Source: Phycisphaerae bacterium
GTDB taxonomy: Bacteria; Planctomycetota; Phycisphaerae; Sedimentisphaerales; Anaerohalosphaeraceae
Assembly (NCBI GenBank): GCA_029858345.1
Contig: JAOUFG010000013.1
Location: 1-39,600 of the forward strand
Direction of reading: 5' to 3'
DNA length: 39,600 nucleotides
The notes beneath the pieces are model-generated. The model did no database searches. It had not been told where the DNA came from and worked only from the letters and a program-made list of their open reading frames with translations. Both the position numbers and the translations under genes were made by a program. Position 1 is the first letter of the stretch. Each line of letters starts with the position of its first letter. Below, one piece after another: positions 6,218 through 39,506 of the stretch.

Positions 6218-6484
6218 ATGCCGCTGTCACAACACATTATTCTGGGCGTTCACATTACCGACCGCATTCACCACGTCGACCCGGTCCAGCACCTGCTGAC
6301 CGAGTACGGCTGCAGCATCCGAACGCGACTGGGCCTGCACGAAGCCGATGCCGGTTTTTGCTCGCCCAACGGACTGCTTTTGCTGGAAATGACGGATGAT
6401 GAAACCAAGGCGACCGAACTGATGGACAAACTCAACGCCGTCGAAGGCGTCGAAGTCAAAAAAATGGCCTTCGACCACCCGTAA
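6218..6484 (+). CDS. Small ACT/ferredoxin-fold regulator, TM1266 (iron-only hydrogenase regulator) type
   Basis: 88 residues resembling the compact ACT-like proteins annotated as iron-only hydrogenase system regulators: an N-terminal strand (HIILGVHITDR), a helix, the TRLGLHE turn, and a C-terminal strand after VEGVEVKKMAF. Family members often sit beside [FeFe] hydrogenase genes; none is present here, so the ligand and role are open. ATG 6218 is preferred over ATG 6212 because AAGGAG ends six bases before it and zero bases before 6212. The stop runs directly into a palindromic repeat. Confidence 0.55.
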   Translation: MPLSQHIILGVHITDRIHHVDPVQHLLTEYGCSIRTRLGLHEADAGFCSPNGLLLLEMTDDETKATELMDKLNAVEGVEVKKMAFDHP

Positions 6485-6576
6485 CCCCGAAGGGGTGAAA
6501 GGTTATTAGCCGGGCGGCGTAAGCCCCCGGAAATAGATTTGAATAAATCAACAAGCCCTGGAAGGGCGACAGAAAG
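6484..6576 (+). repeat. Composite palindromic element, copy 3 (forward)
   Basis: ACCCCGAAGGGGT hairpin, GGTTATTAGCCGGGCGGCG core with its dyad, then AAGCCCTGGAAGGGCGACAG. Its first base is the last base of the preceding stop codon. Confidence 0.8.
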
Positions 6577-6645
6577 CATCTTTCGCCCCCTTGGGGCTTC
6601 GCCTCATATTCGATCCCCAAACCGGAGGCTCACGCCCCGGTTAAC
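6577..6645 (-). repeat. Composite palindromic element, copy 4 (inverted)
   Basis: The reverse complement contains the GTTAACCGGGGCGTGAGCC core and an AAGCCCC...GGGGGCGAAAG hairpin. It pairs head to head with copy 3. Confidence 0.75.
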
Positions 6646-6648
6646 TCA

Positions 6649-6704
6649 CCTGATCACTGATTACTATTGACTGTTGACTGATCACTGCTAACTGATCACT
6701 GAAC
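6649..6704 (-). repeat. Degenerate heptamer tandem repeat (CAGTNAN)n
   Basis: On the minus strand seven consecutive 7-base units fit CAGTNAN or one mismatch of it: CAGTGAT, CAGTTAG, CAGTGAT, CAGTCAA, CAGTCAA, TAGTAAT, CAGTGAT. The first unit supplies the TGA stop of the gene upstream. A related array lies inside addB at 16264-16301. Confidence 0.75.
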
Positions 6705-13568: not shown

Positions 13569-13659
13569 AGAGCCGAAGGCTCAAAAGGCCGTTAGCCGGG
13601 CGGCGTAAGCCCCCGAAACAAGGTTCTAACACACAACCCAAGCCCCGCAGGGGCGAAAG
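13569..13659 (+). repeat. Composite palindromic element, copy 5 (forward)
   Basis: GAGCC-GAA-GGCTC hairpin, AAAAGGCCGTTAGCCGGG core with its dyad, and AAGCCCCGCAGGGGCGAAAG hairpin. It lies immediately downstream of the transposase gene. Its last 30 bases of conserved sequence are identical to copy 7. Confidence 0.88.
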
Positions 13660-13663
13660 TTAC

Positions 13664-14110
13664 TCACTTGAACACATACTTCGGATCATATTTTATATGA
13701 TGCTTTTCCAAAAGCCGCATCAATTCTTCCTCAAATGATAATTTCTTGTGATGGGCCTGCTGATTTTCAATATATTGAATCACTTTGTCCATCCCTGAAT
13801 ATGAAACCGAAAATGCTGAATACCCCTCCTGCCAGGAAAATGTCTGCAAGGATTCAAATGTTTCATGAATCCATTTCGATGAATTTGTTTTGATTGTGCC
13901 GACGAATGATGAAACCGACACACTCGGATGCAGCCCCACCGCCAGATGGATATGGTCGGCGGTGTTGTTGACGCAATGCAGCTTTGCTTTCATATTGCGA
14001 ATCATGCCGCCAAAATACGCATTCAACCGTTCGTCGCCGTTCGGATCAAGAAAAGTCCTGCGTTCTTTGGTCGAAAACACAATGTGATAATGCAAACTCG
14101 TGTAAGACAA
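13664..14110 (-). CDS. Y1 (IS200/RAYT-like) transposase
   Basis: 148 residues, a HUH single-strand transposase of the Y1 class. The metal-binding pair His53/His55 is in DHIHLAV. Tyr113, in VIQYIENQQAHH, fits the catalytic tyrosine, and WQEGYSAFSVS is typical of this family. Such enzymes cut and join hairpin-bearing single-stranded DNA. The gene stands alone without a TnpB partner and is bracketed by palindromic elements 5, 6 and 7, as RAYT genes are with REP sequences. It starts with TTG at 14110, with GGAGG five bases upstream. That site is the tail of element 6. Confidence 0.88.
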   Translation of the reverse strand: MSYTSLHYHIVFSTKERRTFLDPNGDERLNAYFGGMIRNMKAKLHCVNNTADHIHLAVGLHPSVSVSSFVGTIKTNSSKWIHETFESLQTFSWQEGYSAFSVSYSGMDKVIQYIENQQAHHKKLSFEEELMRLLEKHHIKYDPKYVFK

Positions 14111-14117
14111 CGCTGCC

Positions 14118-14226
14118 TCCTTTCGCCCCTGCGGGGCTTATCATAGAAAGAGAAGAGGGAGTTATTGCAATCTTCCAGACCGGGGGCTCACGCCGCCCGG
14201 CTAACAACCTCCCGGACCTTCGGTCC
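14118..14226 (-). repeat. Composite palindromic element, copy 6 (inverted)
   Basis: On the minus strand: GGACC-GAA-GGTCC, GTTGTTAGCCGGGCGGCG core with its dyad, an unusually long spacer of about 45 bases, then the AAGCCCCGCAGGGGCGAAAG hairpin. It leads directly into the transposase ribosome site. Confidence 0.85.
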
Positions 14227-14360
14227 TATGACATCTCAATCGCTAACTCGTTCTTTTTTCATAACATTCATTCAACACGATTTACTCAATAAGCAACAAC
14301 AAAATCATCATATATTTTGACTGGCGTTACACACAAAACATTTCAATTTACGCTGTTTAA

Positions 14361-14447
14361 GTCCCGAAGGGACAAAAGGCCGTTAGCCGGGGACGCAAGT
14401 CCCCGGAGCAAAGTCTCCACACAACCCAAGCCCCGCAGGGGCGAAAG
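14361..14447 (+). repeat. Composite palindromic element, copy 7 (forward)
   Basis: GTCCC-GAA-GGGAC hairpin, AAAAGGCCGTTAGCCGGG core with dyad, and AAGCCCCGCAGGGGCGAAAG hairpin. It has the same orientation as copy 5, so copies 5 and 7 form direct repeats around the transposase and copy 6. The 130 bases between copies 6 and 7 are AT-rich and hold no gene. Confidence 0.88.
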
Positions 14448-18000: not shown

Positions 18001-18451
18001 GCCCCGGCTTGGCCCCCAGTGCATCCGCCAGCGTGCGAATCTGTTTGGGCGTGCAATCGGCGTGCTGAAGCTCGCCCAGCAGGTCGGACAGTTTGGCCGC
18101 CAGTCCCATCCGCTGGACATCGCCTTTATACAGGGTCAGTTGGCCGGCCAGTTCCAGCAGAATCTTATGCAAAATCATCTGCTTGCCGGTGCGGGATACC
18201 TCCGCGGCGCCGCCGCGGCCGGGCAGCAGCCGGAACTGAAGCCGATTGAACGACAGTACATGCAGACGGGAAAAGCCCTTGATGTCCGGATGCGACAAAA
18301 TCGCCCGCTCGGCCTGATACGTCGCCTGCTCCGGCACCAATAACACCAGCGGGCCGTCACCGGCGGCGGTCAATGCCTCACACACCGCATCAATGCACCA
18401 CCGCGTCTTGCCGCTGCCGCTGCGACCCAGAATGAATTGAACGCCTGCCAT
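14993..18451 (-). CDS. addB: AddB-type helicase-nuclease subunit for double-strand break repair
   Basis: 1152 residues, typical AddB length. Walker A GRSGSGKT lies at residues 9-16. The C-terminal PD-(D/E)XK nuclease carries VFDYKSGGKS and DLQLPVYLL. Cys in FAKCPYQYF and three Cys in PCSWCDYRPLC can form the AddB iron-sulfur cluster. With AddA it resects DNA ends for recombination; addA is not next to it here. Residues about 717-730 (TSVISDPSTVNSQ) are encoded by a heptamer repeat array. A promoter (TTGAAA-17-TAAATT) lies upstream, and a decayed copy of promoter and 5' end lies at 19027-19241. Confidence 0.9.
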   Translation of the reverse strand: MAGVQFILGRSGSGKTRWCIDAVCEALTAAGDGPLVLLVPEQATYQAERAILSHPDIKGFSRLHVLSFNRLQFRLLPGRGGAAEVSRTGKQMILHKILLELAGQLTLYKGDVQRMGLAAKLSDLLGELQHADCTPKQIRTLADALGAKPGQELAAAKWTDIAAVFEAYETFFASAESRFKNPDIELTLAREMVASAPFLQGARLWVDGFSGFSVQERDLLVEMLKVCKDASIALCLDLAAIDLANDDEDKLDPCSLFASTEQTYCQLLRVVRGCKLRLREPVVLDKPLRFSEAPALAALEANFVSDKPAKPVLSDGALQIAACGHVRAETLWVAGQIRALVKDSGYRYRQIAVVVPDMDAYQHYIESAFNQYELPYFLDRPRRMKTHPLTELIGAALQAVENGFTSSDVLSFISSPLAGTSFDQVDALGNYCQAFDVQGAEWLQKPAWRFASDTEKQRYDEPAMDALRRELIAPLRTLEQALTDRETISAGQFTQAVWQLLQTLDVQSVLGQWAAEDATDQRFGHRQIFAGMVGLMDELCAVFEGIEMPVSAWGSIFTGALASETIKLIPPTLDQVLVGSIERSRHPDIKAIFLIGATQKQFPVPVAGETLLTEQDYQLAASGSLELANPYDVSLTHRPYLAYIALTRASKRVYLSYPLLDEKGSAVVPWSGIEQLTAMFTDVAVRFPQASIQDANEIQNPHQLGLWLSQRLGKDRTSVISDPSTVNSQEIGARVLHRMADSDDPSLKQTAALVEKSLGYDNAATMDAGLAEKLFHFPMTMSVTRMGTFAKCPYQYFAKYTLGLEKRQLLRFEPMDVGTFYHDVLEAIFKALKQRGADWGDLSVEDLVTLCDAESEKVLSSNTLLVNFMRKRSHHRYIIQSAREVLRLFVPMLGQLSRASRFKQAAAELKFGFDDTLRLVVPLNDGRQIHLRGLIDRLDVADIDGNPSTQLGTGQAAVVFDYKSGGKSVDFAGMLYGLDLQLPVYLLAMGHQKMTPAGAFFLPIASGTNSAALSGLDAVEAGFNKAKGLFDGSFFDAIDTEAAPSGWSGYYNFYVNKDGEPYSFYNSSGALKPDDFQALLNYTEQRIKKLIMDLSTGCISITPYRIGTSSPCSWCDYRPLCRFDWQINDYNILETVNKEEAIEKMKGGIVNE
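16264..16301 (-). repeat. Heptamer repeat array inside addB
   Basis: On the minus strand five 7-base units run CAGTTAT, CAGTGAC, CCGTCAA, CAGTTAA, CAGTCAG. This is the same family as 6649-6704. It is translated without breaking the addB frame. Confidence 0.7.
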
Positions 18452-18484
18452 GAAAACCTCTCGAAAAAACCTCTTTGAGGTCTG

Positions 18485-19026: not shown

Positions 19027-19176
19027 ATATCGGGCGGCCTGATAGGCGGCCTGTTCCGGCGCTGGCAAAATCAGCGGTTCGTCACCACCGGCAACCAATG
19101 CATCACAAATCGCATGAACGCACTGCTGTGTCTCGCTGGTGCCGCTCCTGCCAAGAATGAATTGAACCTGTGCCAT
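19027..19176 (-). pseudogene. Remnant of a duplicated addB 5' end
   Basis: About 50 codons read MAQVQFILGRSGTSETQQCV and onward, clearly matching the addB start MAGVQFILGRSGSGKTRWCI. The match continues through APEQAAYQAAR against VPEQATYQAER and then stops. The Walker A is destroyed (GTSET for GSGKT). The upstream region 19177-19255 also resembles the addB promoter, so promoter and start were copied together. Confidence 0.85.
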
Positions 19177-19212
19177 GAAACTCCCGTTTGATAATGAATC
19201 GTTTCCCACTTA

Positions 19213-39459: not shown

Positions 39460-39498
39460 CGGCTGATATGGAACGACCTTTGTCAAGTTATCATTTTG
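39460..39498 (-). repeat. 39-bp exact repeat, right copy, upstream of the hemerythrin gene
   Basis: Perfect reverse complement of 70-108. Read toward the hemerythrin gene it carries TTGACA and TTGAC-N4-GTC between TGATA and TATCA. A canonical -10 at 17 bases is absent, so it may be an activator-dependent promoter or a non-promoter repeat. Confidence 0.85.
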
Positions 39499-39506
39499 GT
39501 AATATT

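Follow-up and report, generated by a model that had tools for sequence, protein, structure and literature searches.

A Y1 transposase of subclass 1.2 framed by REP-like three-hairpin ends, and Acido-Lenti-1 (RF01687) as most likely a transposon end

What kind of system is formed by a lone Y1 transposase gene lying amid seven copies of a palindromic element, and are these copies transposon ends, regulatory repeats or RNA genes? The question arises from a stretch of 39,600 nt of a Phycisphaerae bacterium, called here the window, which corresponds to contig 95 of a 3.0-Mb draft genome in 198 contigs. A preliminary description drawn from the letters of the sequence reported a RAYT-like transposase between three of the elements, two further pairs near 104-273 and 6484-6645, and a unit of three hairpins, and compared the whole with REP-RAYT systems. 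The gene and all seven elements are recovered, each where it had been reported, and the two distant pairs are gene-less inverted pairs made of elements 1 and 2 and of elements 3 and 4 (Table 1).

Table 1. Transposase gene and hairpin elements of the window
Feature	Position	Strand	Components and evidence
Y1 (HUH) transposase TnpA, subclass 1.2	13664-14110	minus	148 aa, TTG start; PF01797, NF033573, motifs, paralogue alignment
Element 1	104-161	plus	H2 106-125, H3 149-161; no H1; left half of gene-less inverted pair
Element 2	186-270	minus	H3 186-198, H2 225-244, H1 258-270; right half of pair with element 1
Element 3	6485-6567	plus	H1 6485-6495, H2 6510-6530, H3 6555-6567; left half of gene-less inverted pair
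Element 4	6585-6650	minus	H3 6585-6597, H2 6622-6640; H1 degenerate; right half of pair with element 3
Element 5	13570-13654	plus	H1 13570-13582, H2 13596-13615, H3 13642-13654; 3'-side terminal inverted repeat; RF01687 18.9 bits, minus strand
Element 6	14125-14226	minus	H3 14125-14137, H2 14180-14200, H1 14214-14226; 5'-side terminal inverted repeat; RF01687 27.6 bits; GAAAGGAGG ribosome-binding site next to H3
Element 7	14361-14442	plus	H1 14361-14373, H2 14387-14406, H3 14430-14442; solo; RF01687 36.4 bits, E 2.5e-6

Hairpins are named from the outside inwards: H1 is outermost, H2 follows with its NTAG tag, and H3 lies at the gene edge. The three-hairpin build is complete in five of the seven elements, elements 1 and 4 being without a recognisable H1. 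Around the transposase, H3 of element 5 sits 9 nt beyond the stop codon and that of element 6 stops 14 nt short of the TTG start, the ribosome site AAAGGAGG following directly on the tail GGGGCGAAAG of element 6. Since H3 abuts both the start and the stop of the gene, elements 5 and 6 bound a single unit of 657 bp (13570-14226), of which the transposase is the sole gene and whose terminal inverted repeats run inwards from H1 through NTAG-H2 to H3. Element 7 stands alone, 134 nt beyond this unit; the positions first given for elements 5 to 7 are thus kept, while their grouping is revised. Element 3 follows at once on the stop codon (6481-6483) of the gene upstream. The inverted and direct repeats among the window elements are also recovered by an independent repeat listing and, when folded as single-stranded DNA, the inward strands of the elements reach z scores of -1.75 to -4.23 against dinucleotide shuffles.

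Other repeats are present in the window. The sequence at 1-107 recurs identically at the ends of 13 contigs and resembles one end of an insertion element present in many copies; in element 1 this end (1-103) has taken the place of H1. In seven of the 13 cases (C95, C162, C57, C59, C37, C31 and C186) the foot of H2 (AGCCG) adjoins it without a gap, and the insertion element behaves as if it targeted the REP-like H2 tag. At the other extremity, a 41-nt partial inverted copy of this end (39461-39501, 98%) is followed by no H2 hairpin. A direct repeat of 146 nt (18310-18455 and 19035-19180, 75% identical) has its copies 725 bp apart.

The class of the transposase was judged by comparing its motifs with Table 1 of PMC6006769 and by aligning it with its paralogues. 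The protein matches the Pfam profile PF01797 (Y1_Tnp, E 9e-29), is named an IS200/IS605 transposase by NCBIfam (NF033573) and, among PDB sequence matches, is closest to transposases of the IS608/ISDra2 type (E 7e-13); the Pfam and PDB matches make its Y1 fold plain. Its HUH motif reads DHIH, with both histidines invariant across the paralogues; its W motif is WQ (FSWQEGY), with W and Q invariant in the same alignment; its Y motif is YIENQQAHH, and the pattern Y---Q--HH is found in 85 of 87 homologues. In the numbering of the paralogue alignment the catalytic tyrosine is Y118. The Y---NP motif of class-2 RAYTs is absent from the protein, which has YIENQ in its place. Taken with the nearest solved relatives, this means that the protein first described as RAYT-like is no RAYT by membership, and the motifs place the protein in TnpA_Y1 subclass 1.2, beside the IS200 transposases and apart from the class-2 RAYTs. 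Its database name and structural neighbours would also suit an ordinary IS200/IS605 insertion sequence of subclass 1.1 with subterminal hairpins. However, the subclass 1.1 pattern (W[TS], and Y[IV]ENQ without HH) does not describe a protein with WQ and Y---Q--HH, the ends are true inverted repeats, the 657-bp unit is too small for a tnpB, and the paralogues are diverged rather than near-identical, which makes such an insertion sequence hardly tenable.

The nature of the hairpins can be approached through Rfam. Read outward, H2 and H1 together match the family RF01687 (Acido-Lenti-1) in an Rfam scan; the best window copy, element 7, falls just under the cut-off of 37 bits, and the genome holds 18 copies above the cut-off and 47 at E<1e-3. 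A scan with an H2 consensus allowing 3 mismatches gave no more matches than its control, and RF01687 was used instead, as an independent model of H2 plus H1. The type assigned by Rfam is 'Gene; sRNA', in line with the relevant passage of Weinberg et al. 2010 (PMC2864571), where the family is rated 'probably RNA' and placed in Acidobacteria and Lentisphaerae, and with passages of a 2026 paper (PMC13298647), where its function is called little known and it is treated as a non-coding RNA that may regulate proteases. These sources favour a genuine small RNA, whose gene the transposase would merely carry or neighbour. The passages naming Acido-Lenti-1 that a full-text search returned, from a corpus poor in subscription journals and preprints, make no link to a transposase. 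The hairpins of the present genome fit the Rfam model, but what is filed there as an sRNA gene appears here as one part of a transposon end, namely two hairpins out of three; moreover, RF01687 stands mirrored at both ends of the gene, which for an RNA would mean opposite directions of transcription. The identity of the hairpin pair with RF01687 is new with respect to the preliminary description, and so is the return of this plan at the genome's other related transposase genes and in further phyla.

Within the genome, eight related Y1 transposase genes are found, the other seven being 32-56% identical to that of the window; near-identical multicopy transposase genes are absent among the eight. 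Given this divergence, self-transposition is not recent. Inverted hairpin elements, of the same plan and of different sequence, lie on both sides of the paralogues for which both flanks are readable. Two exceptions concern a truncated paralogue (C167) and another (C132) whose upstream side is occupied by a complete gene-less pair instead of an H3 abutting the start codon. No RF01687 match occurs near the three other Y1 genes of the genome (C79, C96 and C190). Combining RF01687 matches with a stem search yields at least 64 elements, among them 17 gene-less inverted pairs with an H2-H2 distance of 130-147 bp, and in five gene-bearing units this distance is 576-604 bp. So many elements, and inverted pairs so tightly sized, imply that those of the window are not due to chance. 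Gene-bearing units and gene-less pairs stand to each other as autonomous and non-autonomous forms, as in REPINs or MITEs, and being half of such a pair is not what would be expected of RF01687 if it were a small RNA.

Individual copies depart from the common plan in several ways. In a hybrid pair (C162:17884-18057, pair coordinates 17910/18057), the left end belongs to family C and the right end to family D, which suggests exchange or cross-recognition between families. An element at C174:4977-5052 carries about 31 extra nt in its H2 loop. The 11-mer GTAAGCGTTCA has five copies in the genome, four of which (C56:24175, C57:10798, C96:34352 and C35:8635) lie about 10-90 nt outside H1 and point inward, and near-matches stand beside two further elements; as a candidate for the outer end of the element it was rejected, being too rare for a constant part.

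The same arrangement was sought around 80 named homologues from eleven phyla, picked by protein sequence alone. RF01687 lies within 300 nt of 48 of these genes. Downstream, the nearest match falls on the plus strand in 41 of 45 cases and clusters about 50 nt away; upstream, it falls on the minus strand in 30 of 37. Among the carriers, Planctomycetes bacterium Pan216 (L134), a non-pathogenic organism available in culture, possesses the gene as well as the elements. The remaining 32 homologues have no RF01687 match within 300 nt; many of them have other hairpins, and most of those from Bacteroidota are without H2. For the two flanks of one gene, left against right, the median alignment score is 57, compared with 18 between loci, and 52 of 85 same-gene pairs exceed the 99th percentile of the cross pairs. 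A search independent of Rfam finds AGCC-tagged stems, 6 bp or longer, in 97 of 172 flanks, compared with 1.8 in shuffles and 14 on the opposite strand. Most of these 97 stems are preceded by NTAG (TTAG 32, ATAG 26, GTAG 22), and TAGCC shows no variation among 42 aligned copies from the window genome, where AGCC was required at collection and only the T is independent. NTAG occupies the place that GT[AG]G has in classical REPs, with a relaxed sequence; in E. coli, GT[AG]G is needed for binding and cleavage by TnpA_REP (PMC8266576). In the homologue tree, a clade dominated by Bacteroidota, with mostly GNA minihairpins only in its flanks, is separate from a mixed clade of Planctomycetota, Verrucomicrobiota and Acidobacteriota, with mostly three hairpins. 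A search of plasmids returned distant relatives only.

A tandem form of the elements is seen in Desulfococcaceae bacterium HSG8 (L118, 850-3400), where some 30 H1-H2 units of about 70 nt each, in one orientation, lie on both sides of a subclass-1.2 transposase. An attC-like reading was discarded, as GTTAGCC does not fit GTTRRRY.

Whether the elements follow their transposase was assessed in 149 Planctomycetota genomes, drawn evenly across the phylum from many families, with thresholds of E<=1e-3 for RF01687 and E<=1e-15 for the profile A1 of subclass-1.2-like transposases. RF01687 is present in 40 genomes and the transposase in 33: 32 genomes have both, eight RF01687 only, one the transposase only and 108 neither (Fisher P 6.5e-24, kinship ignored). 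In other words, the elements occur in 32 of the 33 genomes with the subclass-1.2 gene and in 8 of the 116 without it, and the bond between element and transposase first proposed from the window extends to its relatives. Generic Y1 genes (PF01797) are found in 84 of the 149 genomes. Since RF01687 is as rare where other Y1 genes alone are present (3 of 51) as where Y1 genes are lacking (5 of 65), the link is specific to the subclass, and this fidelity, genome by genome, to one subclass of transposase also weighs against a small RNA. For the RF01687-only genomes, a relaxed search detects transposase fragments in G051, G123 and G089, mostly at contig edges, and no convincing transposase in G011, G041, G080 and G108 (G039 weak). 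In the transposase-only genome (G107, C1:6558264-6559246, L184) the gene is split, yet framed by three-hairpin ends. The split is due to an insert of about 500 bp in the subclass-1.2 transposase, and the end of this insert resembles an IS605-type right end.

The loops and stems of the hairpins bear on the form in which they would be active. The commonest loop length in the flank hairpins is 3 nt (240 of 466). C-GNA-G loops, read towards the gene, number 134, against 21 of the mirror form C-TNC-G and 0.15 C-GNA-G in shuffled flanks; tetraloops are mainly C-GNNA, and about half of them are not GNRA. According to a passage in PMC4686876, which cites Hirao and Yoshizawa, GNA and GNNA loops on G-C stems form extraordinarily stable DNA minihairpins. 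As the loops of H1 and H3 are mostly of this DNA-stable type, single-stranded DNA is favoured over RNA as the working form, and the sequences point to it, if indirectly, as the form under selection. One consequence of the inverted ends counts against a transposon-end mechanism: each strand has one end in the GNA form and the other in the TNC form. Covariation was counted per family, as a mixed alignment puts families A and C out of register, so that RNAalifold on it gave H3 only. In H1 of family C, five of the six pairs vary and 88% of cells keep Watson-Crick pairing, against at most 77% in 2000 column shuffles. H2 of this family shows 100% pairing, including four copies with GG swapped for CC on both sides, and one H2 pair of families A/B takes all four Watson-Crick types; these H2 figures lean upward, as the copies were partly collected by their stem, while H1 was not strictly required. 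Thus two of the three stems announced earlier covary, H1 and H2, while H3 is nearly invariant within the window genome and differs between loci.

Covariation by itself cannot separate RNA from single-stranded DNA, and in this respect it leaves room for a small RNA. The triloops of DNA type, and GNNA tetraloops of which about half are not GNRA, argue the other way and, added to the mirrored placement, the paired occurrence and the tie to one subclass, make a small RNA very unlikely. As the outer two hairpins match its model, RF01687 most likely represents no RNA gene but a transposon end in folded form.

Evidence for mobility comes from close relatives. Two genomes of the same genus (G154 and G156) are without the pair 6485-6650 between the same two genes: the orthologous matches end at the edge of the element, and the gap is shorter by about 190 bp in G154 and about 180 bp in G156, although divergence of the remaining intergenic DNA means that this empty-site junction is not base-exact and defines neither a target duplication nor an end. 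From the sequences and this one empty site, we infer that the system of the window may be mobile and may cleave its elements. REPs have structural or regulatory roles in other bacteria. The elements could accordingly be domesticated repeats (terminators, mRNA-stability sites or chromosome-organisation sites), with a transposase turned maintenance enzyme and no longer mobile; some pairs do lie just 3' of genes, as after the stop codon that precedes element 3, and the transposases are diverged, without near-identical copies. Presence and absence between close relatives, the tight unit size and the families of similar copies within one genome nevertheless point to dispersal, so that pure domestication is unlikely, with the reservation that the two readings are mutually compatible.

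Altogether, the association with one subclass, the position at the gene ends, the tight size of the pairs, the REP-like tag and the DNA-type loops lead to the view that RF01687 copies are transposon ends. It is highly probable that a REP/RAYT-like mobile system, based on a transposase of the IS200 type (TnpA_Y1 subclass 1.2), is represented in the window by a single autonomous unit together with several gene-less derivatives, and that its RF01687 copies are transposon ends and not RNA genes. In the mechanism envisaged, a dimer of the transposase would recognise the ends as single strands, either on the lagging-strand template or in an extruded cruciform. The NTAG beside H2 would guide the choice of the cleavage site, while H1 and H3 would signal strand and boundary and make the folded end more stable. 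By analogy with the way RAYTs are thought to move REPINs, the whole unit would be moved rarely and the pairs of roughly 210 bp more often.

A broader proposal is likely, if somewhat less assured. RF01687 would be a folded single-stranded DNA end of a transposon and not an RNA family; REP-type ends with NTAG would serve both class-1 and class-2 Y1 transposases, the REP/RAYT arrangement having either preceded the split of the classes or arisen twice; and GNA minihairpins would be a signature specific to DNA. If this is true, such minihairpins could expose other 'structured RNAs' that are wrongly filed. Already on the main reading, an orphan RNA family gains a concrete origin, with caution advised in reading RF01687 matches as regulators. 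A transposase subclass reported without any cognate ends acquires them, and REP/RAYT biology, no longer confined to class 2, reaches Planctomycetota, Verrucomicrobiota and Acidobacteriota. The system also makes the movement of REP-like pairs easy to test, with oligonucleotides of about 100 nt and a single small protein.

Comparison with known systems specifies the place of this one. With IS608 and ISDra2 (IS200/IS605, subclass 1.1) it shares the single-tyrosine HUH fold, that of its closest solved structures, but not the W and Y motifs. The ends of IS608 and ISDra2 are non-inverted. TIRYTs and TIRtrons (Di Nocera et al. 2013, PMC3733652) likewise combine a Y1 transposase with long inverted repeats, some of them repeated in the genome; however, they belong mostly to subclass 2.1 and their repeats carry GGGG[AT][CG]A[CG], which GGGGCGAAAG of the window does not fit. 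Subclass 1.2 as defined by Quentin et al. 2018 (PMC6006769) agrees in its motifs (DH[IV]H, WQ, Y---Q--HH), its length of about 148 aa, its low copy number and the low identity between copies. There it is described as having neither REP nor IS200-type terminal structures and as occurring mostly in Cyanobacteria and Bacteroidetes, whereas here cognate ends are found, mostly in the PVC group and Acidobacteria, with structured inverted ends at most loci; since membership of the subclass rests on sequence motifs, it is the 'no REP' part of that description that needs revision. The nearest counterpart in organisation is the REP-RAYT system or REPtron (TnpA_REP, class 2, with REPINs), whose architecture, as had been recognised, is present: a diverged Y1 transposase, inverted palindromes at its flanks, dispersed gene-less inverted pairs and, at the corresponding place 5' of the hairpin, a tag of relaxed sequence (NTAG, compared with GT[AG]G in REPs). 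It differs in the class of the protein (1.2, with Y---Q--HH instead of Y---NP) and in the two extra GNA minihairpins, H1 and H3, that surround the tagged hairpin. Judged by its sequences, the system probably works like REP-RAYT, and in terms of membership its protein is a TnpA of class 1.2, here provided with REP-like ends.
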